Source: an uncultured Algoriphagus sp. (lineage in GTDB: Bacteria > Bacteroidota > Bacteroidia > Cytophagales > Cyclobacteriaceae). From it: a stretch of DNA of 52,810 bases. Where the stretch lies: assembly GCA_903952135.1 (NCBI GenBank), contig CAJBER010000206.1, forward strand, positions 1 to 52,810, given 5' to 3'. Every line of letters begins with the position of its first letter. Position 1 is the first letter of the stretch. Of this stretch, positions 15,401 through 28,191 are shown one piece after another. Both the position numbers and the translations under genes were made by a program. The notes below the pieces were generated by a model, which was given only the letters and a program-made list of their open reading frames with translations, did no database searches and was not told where the DNA came from.

Positions 15401-16007
15401 CGAACTCAATCGCCTCCTAGGCAATGTGGATAACTACCTTTTGGATCAACTCCTAAAAGGGCGATTTACCAAGGACATGAAAATCTTGGATGTGGGCTGT
15501 GGTGAGGGCCGAAATTCCGTGTATTTCCTTCAAAAAAACTATTCCATTTTTGGTATCGACCCAAATGAGGTAGCCATCCAGTATTGCCGCTACTTGGCAA
15601 AAAGTATTCAGCCCCAAACAGACATTCACCGCTTTCAAATCGGCGATGGGGCGGCGATTCCTTTTCATGCAGCCGCCTTTGATGCGGTGATTAGTTCGGC
15701 CGTGCTCCACTTTGCGGAGGGGCATGCCCATTTTTGGAAGATGATCTCTGAAATCCATCGCGTGCTCCAGCCTGGGGGAATTTTTTGGATGCGGATGTGC
15801 ACCGGCCTTGGCAATATCCTGGAAGAAAGTCAGGACCTAGGCGAGGGCAGATACGCCTTACCGGACGGATCCGAACGCTATGTATTGCTGCCAGATGGGC
15901 TGCAAGAACTTGAACGCGTTGGTTTCCGATTTCTTGAAGCCCCCAAGACGGTCCTGGTCTATGGGCAACGGGAGATGGGGGTTTTTCTGATGGAGAAAAT
16001 CGGGTAA
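15390..16007 (+). CDS. Class I SAM-dependent methyltransferase
   Basis: A 205-residue Rossmann-fold methyltransferase: motif I ILDVGCGEGRNSVYFL, acidic motif II FGIDPN, motif III/IV region FDAVISSAVLHF, and post-motif HRVLQPGGIFWMR. The architecture resembles Methyltransf_11 and tellurite-resistance TehB-like enzymes. The substrate is not recognisable. Its ATG at 15390 lies inside the 3' end of the patatin gene in another frame, so the two are co-transcribed and probably translationally coupled. It converges on eboF with a 12-nt gap. Confidence 0.85.
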   Translation: MEIDELNRLLGNVDNYLLDQLLKGRFTKDMKILDVGCGEGRNSVYFLQKNYSIFGIDPNEVAIQYCRYLAKSIQPQTDIHRFQIGDGAAIPFHAAAFDAVISSAVLHFAEGHAHFWKMISEIHRVLQPGGIFWMRMCTGLGNILEESQDLGEGRYALPDGSERYVLLPDGLQELERVGFRFLEAPKTVLVYGQREMGVFLMEKIG

Positions 16008-16019
16008 GAACTTTCTTAT

Positions 16020-17399
16020 TTAGTCCTTTTTACCCTGTACCGCCTTCACAATCAAGTCAAATACAGTGGTGGGAGCAATGCGTTCGGCATTGGAAAGTGA
16101 TGCTTCACAAACCAACAGGGGCTTGTCCAAATCCGATTCTGGGATACGCCCATGGGCTCCCTTGACCAAGGTGGCATCCAAGGGAATCACATCCATCAAG
16201 TAGCGAAAGCCGAGCTTTTTCTTGATGAGTTTGGTGCCCACCTTGAGCATAGGAATGGGGATCGCAGGGTCCATAATCAGTTCCACAGGATCGTAACCTG
16301 GCTTCCTGTGGATGTCCACACAGCGCGCGTAGTCTGGTGCTTTGGCATCGTCGAGCCAGAAGTAGTAGGTAAACCAGGAATCAGCATCCGACACCACCAC
16401 CAAATCCCCTGAACGGGCATGATCCAAATGTGCGTCTTTTTTCCCTTGGGCATCCAAAACTTTTTCCACACCTGGAATCGCTTCGAGGAGGGCTTTCACT
16501 TCAGAAAGTAGGGACTGGTCCTGCACATGCACATGCGCCACCTGATGATCTGCTACGGCAAACACTTTCGAGGTACCTGCATCGAGGGTTTCTAGACCCA
16601 GTTCATTTTTCACTTGAATCCAGCCCTTCTCTCTAAAAATTCGGTTGAGGTGGATCGGTTGAGTCACGGAAGTAATGCCGTATTCGGAAAGCAACAGCAC
16701 CTGCGTTCCTTGACTTTCAAAGTAGGTAATCAGGTCCTTTGCGAGGTCATCAATTTCACGTAGGTCTTTCCCAATCTTCGCAAAGTCAATCCCATACTTC
16801 TGCAAGGCATAATCCAAGTGGGGCAAGTAGATCAAGTTGAGTGTGGGAGAATGCCATTCATCTACCTTCTTGGCCGCCTCCGCTATCCAGCGGCTGGATG
16901 CGATGGTCGTCGCTGGCCCCCAAAAACTAAAGAGAGGGAAGGGGCCTAGCTCCGCTTGCAGGCGGTCCCGCAGCTCCATGGGTTGGCTATGGCAGTCAGG
17001 CAACTTGCGCCCATCCGCAGGGTACAGCGGCCTTGGAGTCACCGCAAAATCCGCCGTGCTGTACATGTTGTACCACCAAAACAGGTTGGCCACGGTAAAA
17101 CTCGGATCTTCTTTGCGCAGCAGGTCCCATACTTTTTCGCCTTGTACGAGCTTGTTGGACTGCCGCCAAAACTTGATTTCACACTCCTCCTCAAAGTACC
17201 AGCCGTTGCCGACAATGCCGTTATCTGTAGGCCACTTCCCCGTCAAATACACCGACTGAGCAGAGCAGGTCACTGCTGGAAGCACGGGCTCCACCACCGC
17301 TTGGTGCTTGGATGCAATCCATTGTTTCAAAAATGGGGTATGCTCTCCGATCACTCTGGGAGATAGCGCGACAATATCGAGGACAACGGTTTTTTTCAT
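16020..17399 (-). CDS. eboF: EboF-type nucleotide pyrophosphatase/phosphodiesterase family protein
   Basis: A 459-residue alkaline-phosphatase-superfamily protein, last gene of the ebo operon. The nucleophile region LPAVTCSAQSVYLTGKWP matches NPP-type phosphodiesterases (catalytic Thr at about residue 44), and later metal-ligand regions are PHLDYALQKYG and KGAHGRIPES. Where NPP enzymes usually have SDHG, this protein has SEYG (LLSEYGITSV), so one metal site may differ. There is no signal peptide, suggesting cytoplasmic action, unlike secreted NPPs. The name rests on operon context with eboA-E as much as on sequence. In cyanobacteria the ebo genes affect export of the scytonemin precursor; the metabolite here is unknown. 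Confidence 0.8.
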   Translation of the reverse strand: MKKTVVLDIVALSPRVIGEHTPFLKQWIASKHQAVVEPVLPAVTCSAQSVYLTGKWPTDNGIVGNGWYFEEECEIKFWRQSNKLVQGEKVWDLLRKEDPSFTVANLFWWYNMYSTADFAVTPRPLYPADGRKLPDCHSQPMELRDRLQAELGPFPLFSFWGPATTIASSRWIAEAAKKVDEWHSPTLNLIYLPHLDYALQKYGIDFAKIGKDLREIDDLAKDLITYFESQGTQVLLLSEYGITSVTQPIHLNRIFREKGWIQVKNELGLETLDAGTSKVFAVADHQVAHVHVQDQSLLSEVKALLEAIPGVEKVLDAQGKKDAHLDHARSGDLVVVSDADSWFTYYFWLDDAKAPDYARCVDIHRKPGYDPVELIMDPAIPIPMLKVGTKLIKKKLGFRYLMDVIPLDATLVKGAHGRIPESDLDKPLLVCEASLSNAERIAPTTVFDLIVKAVQGKKD

Positions 17400-17428
17400 G
17401 TTCTAAAAATGGAGAATACCTCGTTCAA

Positions 17429-18646
17429 TCACTGGAGCTGCTCCCTCACCCAGGCCAGCTCTCGGGAGATCGCCTCGCCCAAGGTAAGGTGGGTGTCCTC
17501 TGGAAGCACTTCCCAAGTGTAGGTTTCCACTTCCAGGTGACTGCTGATGCTTGGATCAGCTTTGACCAATTTCAACACCTCCACAATATCTTCCTGTGTG
17601 GACTGGAAGGTTCCGTAATTTTCTAGAAAGATGGGCACATGAAAATGAACCCGCCATTCCAAATCTTTCGTGTTGTTAAGTAGGGCAATCGCTTGGGGCA
17701 AATCTGGGTAAGAAATCAAACCCTTTTCTTGGGTTCTCCCAACCACCTGATGCAAGTAGGTGGTATCTGCAAATTCTTCCAATCTTTTTCCAATGCTAAA
17801 TCGCTCGAATGGCGAATCTGGAATTAACAGTTTTAGGGCCGCAGAAAGTTGAATTTTCCCTATTCGAATCCCCGCTTTCTTCAATTTCTGAAAGGTCTCC
17901 TTGGGCTTTTCGTAGCCAATGGCAAAGTGACATACATCGTAACAAACCTGAAGATGATCCAAAATCAGCGCTGAAGCTTCCTTCTCCACAATCCCCAATT
18001 TCTTTCCAAGGATGCCCTTCCCTTTGGAAATGAGCCAGTCTTTGAAATAGCGAATCAATTCCTCAGAATTTTCAATCAGCCCATCCGGTTCTGGTTCAAG
18101 GTCTAAGTGCAGCAGCTTCCCCGTTTCACGACGAAGGCGTACCAACTCATCCACCACATCCATCAAATGAGTAGTCGCTTGCGCAAAAGCGGCCTCTTTT
18201 TCCGCATCTGTGCTAAACCAGTGTCTGTAAGACAGGGGAGAGGTGGAAATACCGCCCTCCATCCCCTCGGGAAGAAGCTGAGCTAAAATCCGAAAACATC
18301 GAATCGTGTAATCAAGACGGGCTTCGGTAGTCCAATCTGGTGCATGCACCTGTTCTTTTACCTTGGTTCGGTGAAATCCTCCGTAGGGAAAGCAATTCAA
18401 GGTATAGACGTAAGCATTGCTTTTTTTCAACCAGTCCCGAAACTCCTGCAGGCGCTCTGGGCGCTCCAATACCACCGAGGCTTCATGAGAAAGGCGAAGA
18501 CCAATTCCAAAAGCACCTTTATGGGCCAAGCGTTTCTTGACTTCAGGGATGTATATTTTCAGGTTTTGAAAAGTTGCATCCCACGTTTCCCCCGCATGGA
18601 TGTTGCTGCAATAGCTTAGGTGAAGGTTCGTGATGTTCATAGGCAA
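17429..18646 (-). CDS. eboE: Metabolite traffic protein EboE (sugar phosphate isomerase-like TIM barrel)
   Basis: A 405-residue protein of the xylose-isomerase-like TIM-barrel superfamily. The N-terminal LHLSYCSNIHAGETWDATF is the pattern I associate with EboE proteins; further barrel motifs are LHLDLEPEPDG, VCYDVCHFAIGYE and WRVHFHVPIF, which carry Glu, Asp and His residues suited to a metal site. The second Met (residue 3) is an alternative start. It is separated by 29 nt from eboF and by 6 nt from eboD, supporting one transcript. Catalytic activity has not been established for the family as far as I know. Confidence 0.85.
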   Translation of the reverse strand: MPMNITNLHLSYCSNIHAGETWDATFQNLKIYIPEVKKRLAHKGAFGIGLRLSHEASVVLERPERLQEFRDWLKKSNAYVYTLNCFPYGGFHRTKVKEQVHAPDWTTEARLDYTIRCFRILAQLLPEGMEGGISTSPLSYRHWFSTDAEKEAAFAQATTHLMDVVDELVRLRRETGKLLHLDLEPEPDGLIENSEELIRYFKDWLISKGKGILGKKLGIVEKEASALILDHLQVCYDVCHFAIGYEKPKETFQKLKKAGIRIGKIQLSAALKLLIPDSPFERFSIGKRLEEFADTTYLHQVVGRTQEKGLISYPDLPQAIALLNNTKDLEWRVHFHVPIFLENYGTFQSTQEDIVEVLKLVKADPSISSHLEVETYTWEVLPEDTHLTLGEAISRELAWVREQLQ

Positions 18647-18652
18647 AATTGC

Positions 18653-19804
18653 TTAACCTTGGATAGCGTCGTGCTCTTCCCAATGCTGCAAGAGGTGTAG
18701 CGCTTTCACAATCAATTCGGGATCTATTTCATGTACTTCCACCCCTTTTCCCAACTTTTCCAGAAGCATGATCGTGAGCCTTCCTCCCAAGTGCTCTTGA
18801 AATTCTTTGAGCCCTTGAAGCAAGGCATCCTCTTGAAGTTCAGGCGCATAGAGGCTAAGCCCCAAGGTCCGAAACACCTTAAAAATACGGAGTAAATCGG
18901 CTTCTTCGATTCGCCCTTGCAAAAAAGAATAGGCAGAATCAAGTGCTATTCCTATGGCAACCGCCTCTCCATGTCGAATTCGAAAGTCACTCAATTTCTC
19001 CAGTTTGTGGGCTGCCCAATGCCCAAAATCCAAGGGTCTACTCGAGCCAAACTCAAAGGGATCTGCCCCAGCAATGTGCGCCATGTGGTGTTGCGCACTG
19101 CGAATGATGTGTTCCTTCATGGGCTCCATCTCTCGCCTCGCAAGCGCTGCAGCTTCTTTTTCCAGCCACTCAAAAAAATCAAGGTCTTTGATCAGCGCCA
19201 CTTTGATCGCCTCCGAAATCCCAGAACTCCAATCTCGGTCTTCCAGGCTTTCCAAAAAGGTAAAGTCATTGAGCACCGCAAAAGGAGGGGTAAAGGTGCC
19301 CAGGTAATTTTTTTTGCCGAAGGCATTGATGCTGTTTTTGACGCCAACTGCAGAGTCGTTCTGAGACAGGACCGTAGTAGGAATGCGGACGAGTCGAATG
19401 CCCCGGTGGGAGATCGCTGCCGCAAAGCCCACCATATCGAGTACTGCTCCTCCACCCAAGGCGACCAGGTAGGAGTGCCGATCAATCCCGAAGGTATGAG
19501 TAGCCTCCACCACCTGCTTGTAGGCTTCCGGGTCGTTTTTGCAGGCTTCTCCACCCGCTACCACCATTGGCTCGCCCACTAGAGCAAGACGCGAGGACTG
19601 GGAGGCTATATAGGTTTTGATCTGGGAAATAAGCCCAGGATGATGGGCTACTACCCCAGAGTCCAACACGAAAAATACCCGAGACAGCTGCCCTTCTGGG
19701 AAGGTGTCGACAAACAAGGTTTGACTTTCCGCAAACAAATGCTCCGTAAACGCAACCGGGTAGCGAAAGGGTACCGAGAAAGACTGTTGGAGAATCGTAG
19801 GCAT
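18653..19804 (-). CDS. eboD: EboD, 3-dehydroquinate-synthase-like protein
   Basis: A 383-residue homologue of 3-dehydroquinate synthase (AroB). The NAD-binding and active-site segments are visible: ALGGGAVLDMVGFAAA, RIPTTVLSQNDSAVG, the metal-ligand glutamate in GISEAIKVALIKD, and histidines in DFGHWAAHKLE and RHGEAVAIG. AroB normally has NLGHTFGH at the first histidine block, so the paralogue differs there. Its place between eboC and eboE argues against the shikimate pathway and for a dedicated sugar-cyclase role in the ebo metabolite route. There is a 61-nt gap to eboC, the widest in the operon. Confidence 0.88.
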   Translation of the reverse strand: MPTILQQSFSVPFRYPVAFTEHLFAESQTLFVDTFPEGQLSRVFFVLDSGVVAHHPGLISQIKTYIASQSSRLALVGEPMVVAGGEACKNDPEAYKQVVEATHTFGIDRHSYLVALGGGAVLDMVGFAAAISHRGIRLVRIPTTVLSQNDSAVGVKNSINAFGKKNYLGTFTPPFAVLNDFTFLESLEDRDWSSGISEAIKVALIKDLDFFEWLEKEAAALARREMEPMKEHIIRSAQHHMAHIAGADPFEFGSSRPLDFGHWAAHKLEKLSDFRIRHGEAVAIGIALDSAYSFLQGRIEEADLLRIFKVFRTLGLSLYAPELQEDALLQGLKEFQEHLGGRLTIMLLEKLGKGVEVHEIDPELIVKALHLLQHWEEHDAIQG

Positions 19805-19865
19805 TTTGGGATGGGATAATTCGTCTTGATAGGCAAGATGTGAAAGAAATTGAATTTAATCGCCC

Positions 19866-20777
19866 TTAGGTCACAGCAAATTTTTTGGCCAAGCCCAAAG
19901 AGATGGGAAGCAAAAGCAAAATTACAAGCCCGATGGGCCAGCCCGAAAAGGCCGTGGCCAGGGTGGCATTCACCAAAATTAAGGAAAGTACGGCCGCTTT
20001 CACAGACTTCCCGATGTACTTGGGTTCCTGTGTTCGGATCGCTTGCAAAAGGGGCGGAAAAAGGCGATAGCCCAAAAAGGCTAAAAAGGGCAAGATTTGG
20101 AGGTAACCCGGGCTCTTTTGGTAAGCGAGGAGAAAAAGGGCTACGAAAATAGAGGCATACATGGCTCCTCCTAGAAATAGGGCACTCCGGTTTTTTCCAT
20201 GCACTTCCCCTCTACTGATCAAAGTAATGGCGGCCACATAGACGAGAGGGAGCAGCCCTAGGTACCAGTTGCTCTCCAGCAAGGCAGGTACTACAGCGAT
20301 ACCCAACAGGAGATTCCCTGTCCGGCACAGGCCCATGTTGATGGGTCCAAAAAAGAACTGATGCTTGCCCCAATAATCATAGAGCAAGGCACATCCCGCC
20401 ACGCCGATGGCAAGGATCCCGGCAAGTGGATTGACTTGAAACGCACAGACAATCCCCGCAAAAAGTAGAAGCGAGGCCATTGCAATCGCCCCTTTTTTTG
20501 AAACTCGTCCGCTAGGAATCGGGCGCTCGGGACGCTCGATGGCATCCAATTCCGCATCGGCGATGTCGTTAAACGCTACCCCTCCACCATACAAGCCGAT
20601 GGTGCTGAGGGAAAGCCAAAGCAGGTTCCACCAGTACGTTTGATCCCCATAAATCCAATTCGTGGCCATCCCATCCCAGGCTCCAGCGATGGCAAAGCCT
20701 GCCCAGATATCAGCCACAGCCGTCACCACATTGGCAGGTCGGGTGAGTTGGAGGTAGGAAAAAAGTTTACTGGCCAT
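19866..20777 (-). CDS. eboC: EboC, UbiA-like membrane prenyltransferase homologue
   Basis: A 303-residue integral membrane protein with about eight hydrophobic helices. It carries the first UbiA Asp-rich motif, NDIADAELDAIERPERPIPSG, preceded by a glycine-rich helix, which binds prenyl diphosphate through Mg in UbiA enzymes. The second Asp-rich motif expected near residues 170-190 is not evident; the equivalent loop reads LISRGEVHGKNRS. That may mean altered chemistry. The gene follows eboB by 6 nt. In the ebo system this is the only clearly membrane-embedded protein, so it is the best candidate for the membrane step. Confidence 0.87.
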   Translation of the reverse strand: MASKLFSYLQLTRPANVVTAVADIWAGFAIAGAWDGMATNWIYGDQTYWWNLLWLSLSTIGLYGGGVAFNDIADAELDAIERPERPIPSGRVSKKGAIAMASLLLFAGIVCAFQVNPLAGILAIGVAGCALLYDYWGKHQFFFGPINMGLCRTGNLLLGIAVVPALLESNWYLGLLPLVYVAAITLISRGEVHGKNRSALFLGGAMYASIFVALFLLAYQKSPGYLQILPFLAFLGYRLFPPLLQAIRTQEPKYIGKSVKAAVLSLILVNATLATAFSGWPIGLVILLLLPISLGLAKKFAVT

Positions 20778-20783
20778 GATGGA

Positions 20784-21695
20784 TTAGTTTTCTACGCGGT
20801 CATCAGGACCCTCCACGCGGGGAACCTGTCCACCGCGAAGTACAGAGTTGCCTCCCAGTTTTTTGGTTTGATCAATCGGCGCAGCCTTGAGCCAATCGTC
20901 CTCGTGCATTTGCCCACTCAAGCCAAATACGGTGAGTGCATTTTGGTAGGTAGTCAAGCGAACATGCTCTTCTGGCACCCCCATTTTGCGCATCAGCGCG
21001 GCAGTCTTCGGCACCGCAATCGGATCCGAAATCCCCCAATCTGCTGCAGAATTCACAATGATGCGCTCGGGACCATATTGCTTGACGATCTCCACCATCC
21101 GTTCAGAACCCATTTTGGTATGTGGATAAATGGTAAATGCAGCCCAAAAGCCACGATCCAATACCTCTTTCACTGTTTCCTCATTGTTGTGATCGACCAC
21201 CACCCAATACGGGTCCATGCCATGCTCCACCGCCACATCCATGGAGCGGGTCGTACCCTTCTTCTTGTCGCGGTGAGGGGTATGGATCAATACCGGAAGC
21301 TCCACTTCTTTGGCTAGCTCAAGCTGTAGGCGGTAAAAGCGATCCTCCGCTTCGGTTTGGTCGTCGTAACCAATTTCCCCAATGGCCACCACCCCTTCCT
21401 TGCCCGCATAGAGTGGTAGGAGTTCCATCACCTGTTCGGCCAAGGCTACATTGTTGGCTTCCTTGGAATTGAGTCCCATGGTGCAGTAGTGGACGATGCC
21501 AAACTGGCTTGCACGGAATCGCTCCCAGCCCACCAAGGTGGAAAAATAGTCCTTGAAGGAGCCCACTTCCGTACGGGGCTGACCCAACCAGAATGCGGGT
21601 TCGATCGTGGCCACAATGCCCGCTTTGCGCATGGCTTCGTAGTCGTCGGTAGTCCTGGAAACCAGGTGAATGTGGGGATCTATGTACATTTCCAT
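20784..21695 (-). CDS. eboB: EboB, TatD-family metal-dependent hydrolase
   Basis: A 303-residue TIM-barrel hydrolase of the TatD type: HxH motif in DPHIHLVSRT (about residues 7-16), bridging glutamate in AIGEIGYDD, histidine in LIHTPHRDK, histidine in VVVDHNNEE and aspartate in NSAADWGISDP. All metal ligands appear intact, so it should be catalytically active, though the substrate is unknown (TatD relatives act on nucleic acids or D-aminoacyl-tRNA). It starts 46 nt after eboA and overlaps nothing. Membership of the ebo operon rather than a stand-alone TatD follows from the gene order. Confidence 0.87.
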   Translation of the reverse strand: MEMYIDPHIHLVSRTTDDYEAMRKAGIVATIEPAFWLGQPRTEVGSFKDYFSTLVGWERFRASQFGIVHYCTMGLNSKEANNVALAEQVMELLPLYAGKEGVVAIGEIGYDDQTEAEDRFYRLQLELAKEVELPVLIHTPHRDKKKGTTRSMDVAVEHGMDPYWVVVDHNNEETVKEVLDRGFWAAFTIYPHTKMGSERMVEIVKQYGPERIIVNSAADWGISDPIAVPKTAALMRKMGVPEEHVRLTTYQNALTVFGLSGQMHEDDWLKAAPIDQTKKLGGNSVLRGGQVPRVEGPDDRVEN

Positions 21696-21741
21696 GGGTA
21701 GATGCGGGGGTAATTGGGTGAATTTAGCGGTTGATGAGTGA

Positions 21742-22617
21742 TTAAACTCGATTTTTTTGAAATTCTATTCCTAGGTCTTCCCAGCTGTAGGCATGAGTAG
21801 CGCAGGCTTCCTGAAGCAAAGGATAGGCAGCCAAGAGTTCTTTGGCGGGAGCATAGCTACACTGGTACGCGGCCAAAGCCCCGGCTTTTTGCTCGGTGGC
21901 ATCCGAAGCCGCCAGTACTTTTTTCAGGTCCTCCAGGTATTGAGGCCCCATAAATGGAACGAGCAGGCGCCAAACTTCTGGCATCACTGCCCTCCCGGCT
22001 GCCCAGCGCTCGTGGGCAAAGTCGGTTGCCATGGCAGCAAGTGCTGCATTGCGTCGACGATCTAGGTCTTGGATGAGGTAGAGCGGGCGCTGCATAAAGA
22101 TGGCTTTGAGGACCAGTTGATTCCAGTTGGCCTCCGGGAAAAATCTCGATGGGTAGGGATTGCGCAGCGCAATGGCATCAAAGACCACCGACATATTCGT
22201 GCGGCACCCTTCAATGGCGCGAGGCAAGAGCCCTTCCGCATTCGGGAATAGCGGCAAGGCGGCATAGAGGGCCTGCTGCTCGTACATATCGCCCGTTTCA
22301 AAGAGTTGCTGTAGGATGGCCTGCCAGGATTCATTCTGGAAGGGCAACTGGAGTACTAGGTAAATTCGAGCCACTTGAAGGCTATCCCAGGCAGTTGGAT
22401 CTACTCCCTCAGGAAGAGATCTAGTTGCTCCCTCCGTCCAGGAAACAGCCTCTTTATTAAAATACCGAGAGGCGCGGGAAAAGGCTAGAAAGAAGGGATT
22501 CGGGGAAGTGGAGGCCTTAATTTTATCGGTTTGCTCCGCCAACCAGGTAAATGAAGCAGGTTCCGCAGATGCTTCTAAAGCCTTTTTTAAAAATTCTTGA
22601 ATCGGAGCTGTTGCCAT
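21742..22617 (-). CDS. eboA: EboA family metabolite traffic protein
   Basis: A 291-residue alpha-helical protein, first gene of the ebo operon. It has no signal peptide or membrane segments and no catalytic motif I recognise. The identification comes from its position directly ahead of eboB-C-D-E-F and from the general EboA character: helical HEAT-like pairs with repeated Trp and Leu, such as WDSLQVARIYLVLQLP and LYAALPLFPNAEGLLPRAIEGCRTNMSVVFDAIALRNPYP, the last being a strongly conserved-looking core. The upstream gap (22618-22857) would hold the operon promoter, but no consensus -7 box was found. Confidence 0.78.
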   Translation of the reverse strand: MATAPIQEFLKKALEASAEPASFTWLAEQTDKIKASTSPNPFFLAFSRASRYFNKEAVSWTEGATRSLPEGVDPTAWDSLQVARIYLVLQLPFQNESWQAILQQLFETGDMYEQQALYAALPLFPNAEGLLPRAIEGCRTNMSVVFDAIALRNPYPSRFFPEANWNQLVLKAIFMQRPLYLIQDLDRRRNAALAAMATDFAHERWAAGRAVMPEVWRLLVPFMGPQYLEDLKKVLAASDATEQKAGALAAYQCSYAPAKELLAAYPLLQEACATHAYSWEDLGIEFQKNRV

Positions 22618-22706
22618 GGGGAGATAGATTTACCAAACTTCTACGTAAAGAAACTGTAACCCGAAGAAAAATCCATCCCGTTTTAGACAAATGGAGGAAA
22701 AAAAGT

Positions 22707-22788
22707 TGGTCAACAGTCGACGGTCCACAGACGACTGCTAATTGTTAGGGAAGGCAATGATCTGCGGTGGACCGTTAGCCGTTGACTA
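22707..22788. repeat. Imperfect inverted repeat, GTGGACCGT/GTTGAC family
   Basis: Left arm 22707-22730 contains GTCAAC and CGGTCCAC; right arm 22762-22788 contains GTGGACCGT and GTTGAC, so the two halves fold on each other imperfectly. The same words recur at 28333-28363 and 50104-50133. It lies between the divergent eboA and M28 peptidase genes. Confidence 0.55.
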
Positions 22789-22822
22789 ATTTTATCCACC
22801 AGCGGTTTCAGGAAAATTGAAG

Positions 22823-22846
22823 TTAATTCCTAGTTTTAGGAATTAA
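22823..22846. promoter_or_regulatory. Perfect 24-nt palindrome upstream of the M28 peptidase gene
   Basis: TTAATTCCTA (22823-22832) and TAGGAATTAA (22837-22846) are exact reverse complements separated by GTTT. The element ends 11 nt before the ATG at 22858. It could be an operator or a 5'-leader hairpin at the ribosome-binding region; the TAGTTTTA at its centre also resembles a -7 box (7 of 8 positions with TAnnTTTG counted loosely). Confidence 0.5.
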
Positions 22847-22857
22847 ATACACTCGCT

Positions 22858-24402
22858 ATGAAAATCCGCAACAGCTGGTACCTAGGACTTGTGTTTTTTG
22901 TTTCTGTACAGCTACAGGCACAAAACCAAGTCATCGATGCCATTATCAAAGAAGCAACCGAAAATTCTAAACTAGAAGTTCTTGCTCATGAAATCATGGA
23001 TGGAGTAGGCCCAAGATTGGTCGGCTCCCCACAAATGCAAAAGGCCCATGACTTGGCCGTCACCACCTACCAGAGTTGGGGCATTCCTGCCCGCAACGAA
23101 AAGTGGGGAGAATGGAGAGGCTGGGAAAGAGGCGTCACCCACATGGATATGATTGCACCTTGGACCAAGTCCTTGGCCGGCACGCAGCTGGCTTGGAGCC
23201 CCTCTTCCCCTCAGGGAGGCGTAAAAGGGGAGGTAGTGATCCTTCCTGAATTTGCCGACTCACTAGCTTTCCAAAAGTGGCTACCTTCCGTAAAAGGCAA
23301 GTACGTGATGATCTCCGTACCTCAGCCTACGGGACGCCCGGACTACAACTGGGAGGAGCATGGCACGCCCGCTTCCTTTGAAAAAATGAAAGCCGAACGC
23401 ACCGCCATCAATGCATCTTGGACCAAGCGTCTTCAGGCTACGGGCAAAAACCGCAACCAACTTCCCCTCGCGCTTGAAAATGCAGGTGCTGCAGGTATCC
23501 TCACCTCCAATTGGTCCAACGCCTTTGGTGCCAACAAGATTTTCTCTGCCTCCACCAAAAAAGTGCCGACCGTAGACATTTCCCTAGAAGACTATGGCCT
23601 GCTCTATCGCTTGGCAGAAAGCGGCAAAAAACCACAGTTGCACCTCAATGCGCAGTCCAAAGAAACAGGCATGCAGCCTACCTACAATACCGTTGCCGAA
23701 ATCAAGGGTAGTGCAAAACCAGATGAATACGTGATGCTTTCCGCACACTTTGACTCTTGGGATGGCGGTACTGGTGCTACAGACAACGGCACAGGCACCA
23801 TCTTGATGATGGAAGTGATGCGTGTCTTGAAGCAAGTGTACCCCAATCCAAAGCGTACCATCTTGGTAGGCCACTGGGGATCCGAGGAACAAGGACTAAA
23901 CGGCTCCAGAGCCTTTGTGGAAGACCATCCTGAAATGGTAGGAAAGATCCAAGCCCTCTTCAACCAGGACAACGGTACCGGCCGAATTGCAAATATTTAG
24001 GGTCAAGGGTATGTGGATAGCTACGAGTACCTAGGTCGCTGGCTCAACAAGGTGCCTCGCAACATCACCCAGGACTTGAAAACCGAGTTTCCTGGCAACC
24101 CAGGAGCTGGAGGAACAGACCACGTGTCCTTTGTGGCAGCGGGTGTTCCAGCTTTCAACTTGAGTGCCTTGCCTTGGAACTACTTCAACTATACCTGGCA
24201 TACCAATTTGGACACCTACGACAAGATTGTCTTTGACGACGTGCGTCAGAATGTAATCCTCACTGCGATCTTGGTGTACATGGCCTGCGAAGAAGAAGGA
24301 CTTGTGTCCCGCAAGCAACGCATTCCGATCAATGCGCGCACAGGTGAGCCTACCGAATGGCCTGGCAAACGGTCTCCAACTCGAAAAGGAGGGGTGAATT
24401 AA
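22858..24402 (+). pseudogene. M28 family metallopeptidase interrupted by one in-frame TAG
   Basis: The reading frame runs from ATG 22858 (signal peptide MKIRNSWYLGLVFFVSVQLQAQ) to TAG at 23998-24000, then continues in the same frame without any shift to the TAA near 24402. The first part (380 aa) holds most M28 zinc ligands: AHFDSWDGG with ATDNG, GSEEQG and NQDNGTGR. The remaining histidine (NYTWHTNLDTYDK) is beyond the stop. Homologues read NGTGR-x-xNISGQG at this point, so the TAG replaces a codon that is probably serine. The rest of the frame has no other lesion, which suggests a very recent nonsense mutation, a base-call error, or readthrough. The truncated product would lack one metal ligand. 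Confidence 0.85.
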
Positions 24403-24826: not shown

Positions 24827-26062
24827 CTATTTTTTCCCCGCCACCCTCCAGGTATTTGCCGAATTGTATTTTCCTACCACCAACACCTTGAAAAAGGCCT
24901 TTTTGCCCAAGTCCGGAGGGAGCGCATATTGCTTTGCATCGGAAGGCACTTCTCCTAGGAAAAAATACTCATCCGAGCCTCCTTCACCAAAGTGATCTGT
25001 AGGACTCCAGTAGACAGAAAGGGTTTCGGATTGTGTGCCTGGGGCCCAGATAAGTAGTTGTTTTTTTCCCTTACCGACCAATGTCAGGTTGCTCAGGGAA
25101 AGGGGTCCTGTCAGAGGTACCCCATCCAGTTCGCGTTCCTGATGCTCTGGAACGACCAGGTTGAAAAAGCGAAAAAAAGAAGGGAGCAGATCCACCTGAG
25201 CCCCTTTTCCAGCAGAAAAATGGGCATTCAAGCCGCTGGCGCTAGAAGCAATCCACACTTCCCGTTCCGCCTCACTCTGGCCTCCATGGTCTTTGGCCTC
25301 AGGCTCCTTGCGTCCATGATCGGTAGTGACCCAGAGCTGCCAGTCCTCGCCTTTTTGTTGCCGCTGCTGAATGGCCCGCCAAATCAAGCCTACCTGGGCA
25401 TCTGCCTTTTGGATGGCAGCATCCATTGCGGGACCTCTTCCAAATTTGTGTCCCATGTCGTCCGTGTATTGGAGATACACCCAGGTAAGGTCCGGCCCTT
25501 GGGTACTGAGGTAAGTCGCTGCCTCCTCGGCCACTTTTTGGTCAATTTGGTGAATATAGTCCGACTGGGCATCGTGGGGGTAGCGCAGCGTATCCAGTTC
25601 CAGGCCATCCAGAGACTGGTTCAACTGGAGGTAGTTGGTTTGCGGGAGATTTTCTCCCAGGAGCTTGGTGCGGTTATCCTGCCAGGTGGAGAAAATAGCC
25701 AACTTCGCATCGGGTCGAGCCTCGCGCAGGTAGCGGAAAATGGTCCAGTACTGGTAATTGGGGGATTCGATTCCATTGCCCCAAACCTGATGCTTGTGTG
25801 CCCAGGTACCTGTCAAAATAGAATTGTAGCCGACGGCAGAAATGGTAGGAGATTCGGAATATCCTCCTTTTTGGCCCCCGGCGGATGCACGCGCATAGCC
25901 CCCTTTTTGGATTACTTGATCCAAGTTGGGAGTGGCTACGCGCTCCAAATCCTGAGCCGGAATCCCATCTAGAATAATGAACACAAGCTTTTTCTGTTGG
26001 GCCACCGCTACGGTGCTCCACACTACTAGGATAGAAACTAAGGCTAAAGCCAGCTGTCGCAT
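24827..26062 (-). CDS. Secreted alkaline-phosphatase-superfamily phosphodiesterase
   Basis: The start is placed at ATG 26062, which gives a signal peptide (MRQLALALVSILVVWSTVAVAQ); upstream codons in frame overlap the divergent gene. The 411-residue protein matches the type I phosphodiesterase/nucleotide pyrophosphatase fold: metal-site aspartate in FIILDGIPAQDL, nucleophile region SESPTISAVGYNSILTGT (Thr), metal ligands in QYTDDMGHKFG, TTDHGRK and KDHGGQSE. The C-terminal 100 residues form a separate beta-rich domain (VGKGKKQLLIWAPGTQSE onward), probably for binding. Periplasmic or extracellular action is expected. It is divergent from the S9 peptidase gene, with only 56 nt between the two starts. 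Confidence 0.85.
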   Translation of the reverse strand: MRQLALALVSILVVWSTVAVAQQKKLVFIILDGIPAQDLERVATPNLDQVIQKGGYARASAGGQKGGYSESPTISAVGYNSILTGTWAHKHQVWGNGIESPNYQYWTIFRYLREARPDAKLAIFSTWQDNRTKLLGENLPQTNYLQLNQSLDGLELDTLRYPHDAQSDYIHQIDQKVAEEAATYLSTQGPDLTWVYLQYTDDMGHKFGRGPAMDAAIQKADAQVGLIWRAIQQRQQKGEDWQLWVTTDHGRKEPEAKDHGGQSEAEREVWIASSASGLNAHFSAGKGAQVDLLPSFFRFFNLVVPEHQERELDGVPLTGPLSLSNLTLVGKGKKQLLIWAPGTQSETLSVYWSPTDHFGEGGSDEYFFLGEVPSDAKQYALPPDLGKKAFFKVLVVGKYNSANTWRVAGKK

Positions 26063-26072
26063 CTCGGTTTTT

Positions 26073-26102
26073 TTTGGAAATAAAAGAGAATTTGTACCTT
26101 TT
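26073..26102 (+). promoter_or_regulatory. Candidate promoter of the S9 peptidase gene
   Basis: TTTG (26073-26076), an 18-nt spacer, then TACCTTTT (26095-26102), which differs from TAnnTTTG at one base. The start codon is 17 nt downstream, giving a very short leader. Weak but well spaced. Confidence 0.35.
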
Positions 26103-26118
26103 ACCAAAACCTGCTCCC

Positions 26119-28191
26119 ATGAAAAATTATATCCTTCTCTTTTCGCTTCTTTTTTGCTCCCTCGAGGGGATGGCCCAGCAACTAGGGGACTACTTGTCGG
26201 CCGCATTTCCTACCCACATGACTGCTTCTGCGGATGGCAAGGCCTTGGCCTGGGTGCTCAACGACAAAGGGGAGCGCAATGTATTTTATGCCAAAGCCCC
26301 AGCATATGAGGCGCAACAGCTGACGCAGTACAGGGGAGATCAAGGCATAGATCTAGGGCCATTGGTTTTTTCTCCCGATGGGAGCACCTTGCTGGTAGTT
26401 CGCGGAAATCCCAAAAACTCCTCCGGCTATGCTGCCAATCCTGCCCAACTTCAGGAAAACACGCAGAAGAAAATTCATGTGGTCCAACTCCAAACGGGGA
26501 AAAGTCGGGAGTTTTCCTTGGGAGCATCCCCCGTATTTAGCCCAGACGGCAAGCAGGTCGCTTTTTTGCAGGGAGGGGAAGTATACTTAAAGGCACTTTC
26601 CGACAGCAGCGGGCAAACAGGCAAGCCCCTATTTATTGCTAGAGGTACATCCTCTAACCTGGCGTTTTCTCCAGATGGCAGCTACCTGGCCTTTGTGTCG
26701 GCACGCACCGACCATTCCTTTGTGGGCCTTTGGAATTTTGCGAAAAAGAGCCTCCACTTTCCAGAAGCCAGTTTGGACCACGACAGCTACCCCGCCTGGA
26801 GCCCAGATGGGACGCAGCTCGCCTACTTGCGTGTACCCAACATCCTGAATCACCTCCCCTTCACCTCGCTGACCGAAGCCAATCCCTGGAGTATCCGCGT
26901 TCTTCAGCTCGCTACACTAGAGGCAAAGGAAGTGTGGCGGGCAGATCAAGGCGACGGCTCCGTGATGGTAGACGACCTCCCAGCATCCTCCGAGCGCCTC
27001 TGGTGGACACCAGACGGGCAACTTGTCTTTCCTTGGGAGAAAAATAACTGGATGCAGCTCTATGCCGTCAACCCAAAAACAAAGCAGGTAAAGCACCTGA
27101 CTGCTGGGGAAGGGCAAGTAGAATGGGTGCAAACTTCCTACACCAAAAAAGACCTGCTCGTGACCCACAACATTGGAAATATTGACCGACGTCAGGTGTC
27201 GCTGCTCGACTTATCCACACTGGAGATGCGACTACTTTCGAATCCAGAAAGCATCTCTTGGGCTCCAGTAGCGGTAGAGAAGGGATGGGCTTGTTTCGAG
27301 TCCAATTGGAATCAACCCGGCTGGCCTACACTTCACCTATCGGGAAGCAGTAAAAAGCTTGCAGAAGCACGCTTCCCCAAGGAATTTCCAAAGACCTTCA
27401 GCAAACCGGAAGCAATTACCCTTACCGCAAAAGATGGCTATAAAACTTCCGCTCAGTTGTTTTTACCACCAAACTACGATCCCAAGAAAAAATACCCTGC
27501 TGTCATTTTCATGCACGGAGGTAGCCGCAGGCAGATGCTTTTGGGCTACAACTATGGCCTGTACTATTCCCATACCTATGGCGCTCAACAGTATTTTGCA
27601 TCCCAGGGCTACATTGCCTTGACGCTCAATTACCGCAGTGGCATCGGCTATGGGATGGACTTTAGGGAGGAGAAAAACTTCGGAGCAGGAGGGGCTAGCG
27701 AGGTACAGGATGTCTTGGCAGCAGCAGACTATTTGGCTGCCCGATCCGATGTGGATGCAGGCAGAATTGCTCCATGGGGAGGCAGCTATGGGGGATACTT
27801 AACCGCACATGCACTAACTCAGGCCCCTGAAAAATTCCACGTAGGCGTAGACATCCATGGGGTCCACAATTGGAACAACGACATTCCCGTCTTTGCTTCG
27901 TGGTATGCCCCTGAGAAATTTCCAGAAATGGCCGATCTGGCCTTTCGCTCTTCTCCTATGGCTCGTGTGGAAAACTGGAAGGATCCCGTATTGCTTATCC
28001 ATGGGGATGACGACCGCAACGTGCTCTTTTCCGAAAGTGTGGAACTGGCAGAAGTGTTGCGGAAGCAGGGAGTGGAAGTAGAGCAACTGGTCTTCCCGGA
28101 TGAGGTGCATGCCTTTTTACTTCACCAAAACTGGGTTAAGGCCTTTGAGGCAACCTTCAGATTTATCGCCAAACATTCTTCGGAAAAATAA
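26119..28191 (+). CDS. S9 family (prolyl oligopeptidase / DPP IV-like) peptidase
   Basis: The ATG at 26119 begins a signal peptide (MKNYILLFSLLFCSLEGMAQ). Residues about 25-430 form a TolB/WD40-like beta-propeller with repeated FSPDG motifs (LVFSPDGSTLLVV, PVFSPDGKQVAFL, LAFSPDGSYLAFV, PAWSPDGTQLAYL). The C-terminal alpha/beta-hydrolase domain carries the catalytic triad: Ser in WGGSYGGYLTAH, Asp in IHGDDDRNV and His in PDEVHAFLLH. The oxyanion region YPAVIFMHGG is also present. The protein should be a periplasmic serine exopeptidase. 690 residues is a usual length. Neighbouring AlkP gene is divergent, so shared regulation is possible. Confidence 0.9.
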   Translation: MKNYILLFSLLFCSLEGMAQQLGDYLSAAFPTHMTASADGKALAWVLNDKGERNVFYAKAPAYEAQQLTQYRGDQGIDLGPLVFSPDGSTLLVVRGNPKNSSGYAANPAQLQENTQKKIHVVQLQTGKSREFSLGASPVFSPDGKQVAFLQGGEVYLKALSDSSGQTGKPLFIARGTSSNLAFSPDGSYLAFVSARTDHSFVGLWNFAKKSLHFPEASLDHDSYPAWSPDGTQLAYLRVPNILNHLPFTSLTEANPWSIRVLQLATLEAKEVWRADQGDGSVMVDDLPASSERLWWTPDGQLVFPWEKNNWMQLYAVNPKTKQVKHLTAGEGQVEWVQTSYTKKDLLVTHNIGNIDRRQVSLLDLSTLEMRLLSNPESISWAPVAVEKGWACFESNWNQPGWPTLHLSGSSKKLAEARFPKEFPKTFSKPEAITLTAKDGYKTSAQLFLPPNYDPKKKYPAVIFMHGGSRRQMLLGYNYGLYYSHTYGAQQYFASQGYIALTLNYRSGIGYGMDFREEKNFGAGGASEVQDVLAAADYLAARSDVDAGRIAPWGGSYGGYLTAHALTQAPEKFHVGVDIHGVHNWNNDIPVFASWYAPEKFPEMADLAFRSSPMARVENWKDPVLLIHGDDDRNVLFSESVELAEVLRKQGVEVEQLVFPDEVHAFLLHQNWVKAFEATFRFIAKHSSEK

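Follow-up and report, generated by a model that had tools for sequence, protein, structure and literature searches.

What does the ebo operon make? The question has been open since the operon was named in 2016 (Yurchenko et al., PMC5133447; here and below, statements on earlier work rest on parts of the papers cited), and it is raised again by a complete copy, eboABCDEF, in a 52,810-nucleotide contig of an uncultured Algoriphagus sp. (CAJBER010000206.1; "the window" denotes this whole stretch of DNA). The window operon itself is ordinary. What is new is a residue-level reading of two of its proteins, EboF and EboD, together with the alternation, in other bacteria, of EboD with a homologue of inositol-phosphate synthase (MIPS). 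This exchange places a chemical constraint on the ebo product and turns the question into a swap experiment. Our preferred answer, to which we give slightly less than an even chance, is a prenylated cyclitol that acts as an export aid.

The six genes are co-directional, all open, and arranged in the order eboA-B-C-D-E-F on the minus strand (16020-22617; Table 1), with intergenic gaps of 46, 6, 61, 6, and 29 bp from eboA to eboF and a G+C content (0.511) close to that of the window (0.494). An earlier interpretation made without database searches (the sequence-only reading) had called this a complete ebo operon in a Bacteroidota genome, and the profile searches that it suggested bear this out. 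EboC and EboE score 403.9 bits (NF035940) and 500.8 bits (NF035939), respectively, against cut-offs of 250, and EboA passes the NCBIfam EboA_domain model (174.7 bits, cut-off 50) and misses the stricter EboA_family model (225.4 bits, cut-off 320). EboB and EboF, which matched no Ebo-named NCBIfam model, were placed by Pfam, position, and relatives. The same six genes, in the same order and from the same families, constitute the ABCDEF type described in 2016 from Bacteroidetes, Cyanobacteria, and Leptospira, and called the ancestral form in Bacteroidetes (PMC5133447); the window shows no difference in architecture. Given that 68 of the 81 loci fetched by EboE (window included) hold all six genes together, the grouping is beyond chance; some of the other loci stop at a contig end.

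Table 1. The ebo genes of the window and the region upstream of them.
Feature	Position	Strand	Description
eboA	21742..22617	-	291 aa; all-helical, predicted HEAT/ARM-like solenoid, probable scaffold
eboB	20784..21695	-	303 aa; TatD-superfamily metal-dependent hydrolase, most conserved Ebo protein
eboC	19866..20777	-	303 aa; UbiA-superfamily intramembrane prenyltransferase (Ubi-297 group)
eboD	18653..19804	-	383 aa; sugar-phosphate-cyclase superfamily, distinct from the cell's AroB
eboE	17429..18646	-	405 aa from TTG, with an ATG two codons in; xylose-isomerase-like triosephosphate isomerase (TIM) barrel
eboF	16020..17399	-	459 aa; nucleotide pyrophosphatase/phosphodiesterase (NPP) / phosphonoacetate-hydrolase fold, apparently replaced metal ligands
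divergent intergenic region upstream of eboA	22618..22857		shared with M28-type peptidase gene; probable promoter region

The chemical constraint comes from ebo clusters of other bacteria. A tblastn search with the window EboE returned 47 records of a plasmid collection, some of them chromosome-sized, whose coordinates we compared by eye. EboD (at least 46% identity) lies within 10 kb of EboE in 15 records (two Deinococcus, one Aureibacter, five Ketogulonicigenium, two Salipiger, one Roseivivax, three Mycetohabitans, and one Azospirillum), and a MIPS homologue lies equally close in 29 (25 Streptomyces, two Embleya, one Nonomuraea, and one Gemmatirosa). Three records have neither, two of them with only EboB, EboE, and EboF within about 9 kb and the third with a solitary EboE next to polyketide genes, and none of the 47 was found to have both. 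EboD gave no match at E 1e-5 in the ten MIPS-type loci whose DNA was read; for the remaining 19, absence means that they were not among the best 60 of 115 records, and for MIPS all 44 records were listed. One cyclitol-forming synthase appears to replace another. EboB, EboE, EboF, and an EboC homologue are common to both types, the EboD position being filled in MIPS-type clusters by the MIPS homologue and an extra isomerase; an EboA domain is present in the actinomycete loci read, and no EboA match was found in Gemmatirosa. The EboC homologue scanned from a MIPS-type cluster belongs to the SCO3242 family (376 bits, cut-off 260; EboC model 125.7, under its cut-off of 250), and both MIPS homologues scanned match PF01658 (99.3 and 113 bits). 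SCO3242 itself is listed, with the myo-inositol phosphate synthase SCO3243, in the calcium-dependent antibiotic cluster of Streptomyces coelicolor (PMC3610822).

Trees of EboB, EboC, EboE, and EboF (31 sequences each) offer a view of how the exchange might have come about. The MIPS homologue, isomerase, and EboC type of Gemmatirosa (L144) accord with the streptomycete set, and its EboC groups with the MIPS-type actinomycetes (Shimodaira-Hasegawa-like approximate likelihood ratio support of 87, not decisive). When all MIPS-type sequences were forced together, EboB rejected the grouping (approximately unbiased test, p 1.5e-35, with long branches present), EboF rejected it weakly (p 0.037), and EboE did not (p 0.18). 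Given that EboC tends to group with the MIPS type and EboB does not, the trees are suggestive, though not conclusive, of MIPS, isomerase, and EboC having moved as a set. The word "inositol" is absent from the main texts of PMC5133447, PMC6282210, and PMC9235831, where we did not find the alternation, and no paper was found when the open-access literature was searched for the names that databases give to ebo and MIPS-type proteins.

Several of these clusters have neighbours that deserve mention in their own right. In two of the four annotated MIPS-type loci read, both from Streptomyces, the operon is immediately preceded by the gene of a ScyD/ScyE-family protein (L158, 3194-4396, and L161, 3180-4379; 243 and 257 bits, cut-off 80). 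With multicopper oxidases nearby, these proteins perhaps indicate scytonemin-like periplasmic chemistry outside cyanobacteria. A ferritin-like protein is encoded upstream of ebo on Aureibacter and Mycetohabitans plasmids (L145, 651-1919, and L162, 2987-4069). In Ketogulonicigenium (L150, 11575-13621), ebo has as neighbours a sugar phosphate isomerase and two oxidoreductases of the Gfo/Idh/MocA family, enzyme types also known from inositol metabolism. In Streptomyces sp. NBC_01244 (L151, 8977-10155), EboE stands alone in an apparent aromatic (type II) polyketide cluster, no other ebo gene being found within about 9 kb of it.

The residues of EboD bear on which substrate it might close. The sequence-only reading had labelled it dehydroquinate-synthase-like and EboB a TatD hydrolase; both labels are right for the superfamily and for nothing finer. 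EboD stays under the aroB equivalog cut-off (227.5 bits, cut-off 305) and EboB under that of the TatD subfamily model TIGR00010 (37.1 bits, cut-off 206). A separate AroB, on another contig of the genome (G000:C77), scores 333.1 bits and is above the aroB cut-off. EboD does pass PRK06203 (558.9 bits, cut-off 333), a model that also bears the name 3-dehydroquinate synthase, and its best solved matches are dehydroquinate synthases (DHQS; 5eks, 164 bits), the sedoheptulose 7-phosphate cyclase ValA coming third (4p53, 136 bits). In the printed alignments, a motif that reads LNLGH in the DHQS chains is VDFGH in ValA and LDFGH in EboD. D259, found in all 79 EboD sequences, faces N in the printed DHQS chains and D in ValA; the column holding K in the 5eks DHQS and M in ValA is L in 34, M in 30, V in nine, and T in six of the 79, never K; and position 255 is S in 77 and A in two where DHQS and ValA both have R, the following R256 being R in ValA as well. 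Like D259, residues R256, H262, H278, E198, K156, N166, and K201 are each invariant (79/79). We take K250, R264, and N268 of the fungal dehydroquinate synthase to be substrate contacts. The EboD residues, compared with ValA at single columns, would fit a substrate without the carboxylate of 3-deoxy-D-arabino-heptulosonate 7-phosphate (DAHP). A substrate of this kind was proposed earlier from phylogeny, in which EboD forms a clade of its own (PMC5133447), and a 14-residue fingerprint of sedoheptulose 7-phosphate cyclases (Kean et al. 2014) is mentioned in PMC4426668.

EboF has kept the fold of a phosphodiesterase and apparently replaced its metal site. It matches PF01663 (Phosphodiest) with 191.5 bits, and its AlphaFold2 model (predicted local distance difference test score, pLDDT, 85.3; residues 357-377 and 397-404 below 50) matches ENPP5 with Z 32.3 and a root-mean-square deviation (rmsd) of 3.0 over 336 aligned residues. 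A single-sequence search against solved chains gave no match, and a profile of 58 EboF sequences did match the Xac NPP (2gsn; whole-sequence E 6.8e-5). In the profile alignment, the canonical D, T, D, H, D, H, and H columns, which we take to be D54, T90, D210, H214, D257, H258, and H363 of Xac NPP in number and metal-site role, hold V10, T44, D196, Q200, E239, Y240, and H416 of EboF. Because local alignment scores are weak (10.1 and 11.6 bits, and -1.6 for the H416 stretch), the assignment depends on the surrounding motifs (DGL, HxD, SDHG, HG) and on the agreement in fold. Alignments with phosphonoacetate hydrolase and ENPP4 have D and H four apart, followed by DH, where EboF has D...Q and EY. 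EboF thus shares the fold and the nucleophile Thr with the two-metal phosphodiesterases of the NPP / phosphonoacetate hydrolase family, whereas their canonical D, H, D, H ligands appear replaced. D8 was considered as counterpart of the first canonical Asp and set aside: the alignment puts V10 there, and position 8 varies, mostly between D (52 of 78 sequences) and N (25).

These substitutions are shared throughout the EboF sequences read. V10, T44, D196, Q200, E239, and Y240 occur in all 78 EboF from Bacteroidota and Cyanobacteria (77 loci and the window; 60 distinct at 90% identity), and H416 in 77, with one gap. Twenty further loci from Deinococcota, Gemmatimonadota, Pseudomonadota, Actinomycetota, and one Bacteroidota-species plasmid (16 distinct at 90% identity) all have D196, Q200, E239, Y240, and H416, and 19 of them have V10 and T44, with one gap each. 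Q200, E239, and Y240 are hence found in 98 of 98 EboF from six phyla, and this invariance argues that the substitutions are old and kept. Given that the canonical metal site is apparently lost, we question the annotation of EboF as a phosphate hydrolase: it could be either a pseudo-enzyme or an enzyme of other chemistry. The sequence-only description of EboF as phosphodiesterase-like is therefore apt for the fold and doubtful for the usual metal ligands. The terms "active site" and "catalytic residue" are absent from the main text of PMC5133447, as is "catalytic" from that of PMC6282210. Near the operon, the window encodes a natural contrast, a second PF01663 protein (24827-26206, minus strand; 65.2 bits) in which DG, D-x-x-x-H, and DHG are recognisable by eye.

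EboC would provide the prenyl group. N70-D71-x-x-D74-x-x-x-D78, Y63, and R152 are conserved in 31 of 31 EboC across phyla, and among solved structures EboC is nearest to digeranylgeranylglyceryl-phosphate synthase (E 1.6e-9), an enzyme that uses a polyol phosphate as acceptor. Shifted by seven positions each, Y63 and R152 correspond to Tyr56 and Arg145 of Ubi-297, a mapping inferred without alignment to the Ubi-297 sequence. Ubi-297 is the name of assayed EboC homologues in the same prenyltransferase group, which share the ebo context, the DXXDXXXD motif, and the Tyr and Arg. The Maribacter enzyme used six of 14 acceptors, with 8-hydroxyquinoline-2-carboxylate (8-HQA) and quinaldic acid the best, and Ubi-297 tolerated the mutation R145A without losing 8-HQA activity (PMC9235831). 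One of the enzymes assayed there comes from the genus of the window, Algoriphagus machipongonensis, and accepted 8-HQA for farnesylation (PMC9235831). These assays concern aromatic acceptors and relatives' enzymes, whereas the window EboC is known here from its sequence. That R145A remains active on 8-HQA while the corresponding R152 is invariant (31/31) suggests that 8-HQA is a surrogate acceptor. The sequence-only reading had considered the metabolite of this host to be unknown, which holds for the native product and leaves this EboC biochemistry unmentioned.

EboB and EboE retain full sets of candidate metal ligands, a point in favour of a prenyl-cyclitol pathway. In EboB (Pfam TatD_DNase, 58.8 bits), whose top match among solved chains is 3guw (AF_1765; E 4.1e-23) with the TatD enzymes ranking behind it, H8, H10, E107, H138, H169, and D219 are present in 31 of 31 sequences and are presumably TatD-type metal ligands. 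Across the fetched loci, no other Ebo protein is as conserved as EboB, which has a mean pairwise identity of 74.3% (70 sequences) versus 42.0, 53.5, 59.1, 53.1, and 63.5% for EboA, EboC, EboD, EboE, and EboF. For EboE, a sequence search against solved chains gave no match, and the name of the fold comes from NCBIfam and PMC5133447; its conserved E184, E186, D237, H240, H299, H334, H336, and E374 (31/31) would suit a metal-binding TIM barrel. EboA looks like a HEAT/ARM-type helical solenoid in its AlphaFold2 model (mean pLDDT 95.3), the best structural match having Z 9.7 and an rmsd of 6.5 over 240 aligned residues, which is weak for helical repeats, and the best Foldseek hit an E of 0.22; a tetratricopeptide repeat fold, suggested previously (PMC6282210), may also apply. 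The alignments behind the EboA and EboF models started from 71 and 77 loci, of which 66 and 69 passed length filters, and 64 and 57 of these were used with the window, the remainder being mostly near-copies.

In the pathway that we propose, EboD would close a sugar phosphate without the DAHP carboxylate, probably sedoheptulose 7-phosphate, to give a cyclitol, which EboE and EboB would remodel using ordinary metal sites. In the inner membrane, EboC would attach a prenyl chain to the cyclitol; EboA may act as a helical scaffold, and EboF might bind or process the phosphorylated head group in a non-canonical manner. The resulting small, membrane-bound prenyl-cyclitol lipid could help a host metabolite to reach the periplasm, as ebo does for the scytonemin monomer in Nostoc. 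Our own observations are the gene content and families, the conserved residues, the EboF substitutions seen by alignment, and the EboD/MIPS alternation, while the Nostoc export phenotype and the farnesyl transfer by relatives of EboC were demonstrated by others. We infer the cyclitol product, the order of the steps, the carrier role, and all that concerns an Algoriphagus cargo; metabolite export in Algoriphagus would be by analogy. The analogy draws on Nostoc punctiforme, where deletion of each ebo gene studied confines the scytonemin monomer to the cytoplasm without a build-up of intermediates specific to the gene (Klicki et al. 2018, PMC6282210), a role that the sequence-only reading had stated correctly. 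In a Pseudomonas, transposons in eboA, eboD, or eboE abolish nematode repellence (Burlinson et al., as reported in PMC6282210). The Nostoc and window Ebo proteins are homologous, with EboB of the fetched cyanobacterial loci 69-75% identical to that of the window. Nostoc ebo is needed for scytonemin-monomer export; beside the window operon, no scytonemin genes were recognised when the families of four flanking genes were scanned and the rest inspected by eye, as the sequence-only reading had also seen.

A number of points weigh against a prenylated cyclitol that aids export. EboD and MIPS would be expected to yield different products, unphosphorylated and phosphorylated, respectively. Because ValA retains R in the column of S255, resemblance to a 2-epi-5-epi-valiolone synthase does not fully describe EboD. 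The MIPS swap rests on two lineages, and since many of the streptomycete records are near-copies, the independent units (actinomycetes, Gemmatirosa) are few. The two clustered MIPS homologues scanned score only 28.6 and 47.5 bits with a curated mycothiol-type model (cut-off 638), which leaves doubt as to whether they form inositol phosphate. Open reading frames of at least 120 aa within 10 kb on either side of the 81 loci, clustered across genera, include no recurrent neighbour that names a cargo. From the literature, eboD was outside the Nostoc export analysis (PMC6282210), the passages of the ebo papers used here do not name a product, "cyclitol" is absent from the main text of PMC9235831, and what membrane fractions with Ubi-297 / EboC of Maribacter, Zobellia, and Algoriphagus machipongonensis farnesylated in vitro was 8-HQA (PMC9235831).

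This last result is the basis of a different proposal, namely that the native acceptor of EboC is an aromatic quinoline acid and a farnesylated quinoline of the 8-HQA type the final natural product. EboC homologues of three genera do catalyse the reaction (PMC9235831), but the proposal must account for an Arg that is mutable on 8-HQA (R145) and invariant in EboC (R152), and it gives EboD and MIPS no role. Moreover, tryptophan-dioxygenase homologues, mostly partial matches, were found in 36 of 39 EboE-positive genomes versus 14 of 19 EboE-negative ones; because they were not found in three EboE-positive genomes (two of them 94-100% complete) and do occur in EboE-negative ones, this route to aromatics seems unneeded, and kynurenine-derived aromatics are seemingly not required as a universal substrate. 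We favour a prenylated cyclitol over an aromatic product because of the EboF substitutions, the EboD/MIPS alternation, and the lack of DHQS-distinguishing residues in EboD, and regard the quinoline product as rather unlikely. More improbable by far is that EboD serves as a second dehydroquinate synthase for aromatic biosynthesis. Its PRK06203 score and the DHQS chains among its best solved matches would agree with such a function, which is opposed by the missed aroB equivalog cut-off, the separate AroB of the genome, the substitution of DHQS positions in 79 of 79 EboD, and the separate EboD clade of PMC5133447.

The alternative that ranks next after a prenyl-cyclitol export aid shares its chemistry and differs in purpose: an isoprenoid-cyclitol secondary metabolite, protective or antimicrobial, could be the end product, with effects on transport being secondary (Yurchenko et al. 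2016). That 33 of 36 genus genomes have kept the system, with no pathway recurrently linked to it, is in line with this idea, which we nevertheless consider doubtful, given that the Nostoc deletions studied (eboD excepted) keep the scytonemin monomer cytoplasmic without gene-specific intermediates (PMC6282210) and that two Streptomyces loci have ScyE-family genes next to ebo, which suggests that a cargo is handled in the periplasm. The coordinated deletion phenotype (PMC6282210) might also be read as that of a transport complex anchored by EboC and EboA, with no diffusible product, and both the predicted helical solenoid of EboA and the apparent lack of canonical catalytic metals in EboF would agree. 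Yet EboB, EboC, EboD, and EboE retain conserved candidate active-site residues, eboE or eboE-F lie apart from the other ebo genes in some genomes, and EboD is exchanged for an unrelated cyclitol synthase; such a complex appears improbable to us, somewhat more so than a quinoline product.

The prenylated cyclitol that we prefer can be extended to a broader and clearly more speculative proposal, which we deem unlikely though worth stating: ebo might be a general bacterial prenyl-cyclitol lipid carrier with a swappable synthase (EboD, or a MIPS homologue with its matching EboC and isomerase), with EboF as a conserved pseudo-phosphodiesterase whose task is to read or deliver the head group. If true, ebo would constitute a third kind of lipid-linked export aid beside undecaprenyl and capsular carriers, and the calcium-dependent antibiotic cluster and the streptomycete ScyE-type loci would be further users.

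The distribution of ebo places the window copy in its host lineage. The host is an incomplete Algoriphagus-type metagenome-assembled genome (MAG; 2.84 Mb, 249 contigs, 89.9% complete), in agreement with the Bacteroidota origin assumed at the outset, and the named loci closest to the window are from Algoriphagus. While the sequence-only reading had described the occurrence of ebo as scattered, this is not the case here: ebo is nearly universal within the genus, with EboE in 33 of 36 genomes (the own genome counted; of the three without it, two are 67-76% complete and the third 99%), versus six of 22 examined elsewhere in the order. A concatenated phylogeny, suggested at the time as a test of horizontal transfer, was computed as a quick tree of the six proteins from 67 of the 68 complete loci (L056 was omitted, its MAG already contributing a first copy, L055); the window adjoins another Algoriphagus MAG among Algoriphagus, and we therefore see no sign of recent transfer. 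Nine genomes were chosen because eboE was alone, cut by a contig end, or missing, one of them as a relative of such a genome. EboC was above its cut-off exactly where EboE was present (six with both, three with neither), and three of the nine have no other ebo gene in the 20 kb around eboE. The ebo genes therefore tend to stay together in a genome even when the cluster is split.

Among the clustered flanking open reading frames of the 81 loci, five genera is the widest spread of any family; only three families reach it, and their place and strand vary. Scans for sigma-70 promoters (15500-23200) and for terminators gave results no better than shuffled sequence. Upstream of eboA, a 27-nt imperfect inverted repeat (22702-22728 / 22767-22793) is present. 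The divergent peptidase gene beyond it (22858-24402, plus strand), whose M28-type name is our own assignment, has an in-frame stop after codon 380, from which the frame runs on to 24402; at this position, the frame is open in six of six relatives looked at, and the stop may be a real disruption or an assembly or sequencing error. Degenerate intergenic repeats of GTGGACNGT / GTCNACNG units occur at window positions 22702-22793, 28335, and 50114, and ACGGTCCAC is found in four copies in the window versus 0.28 expected.

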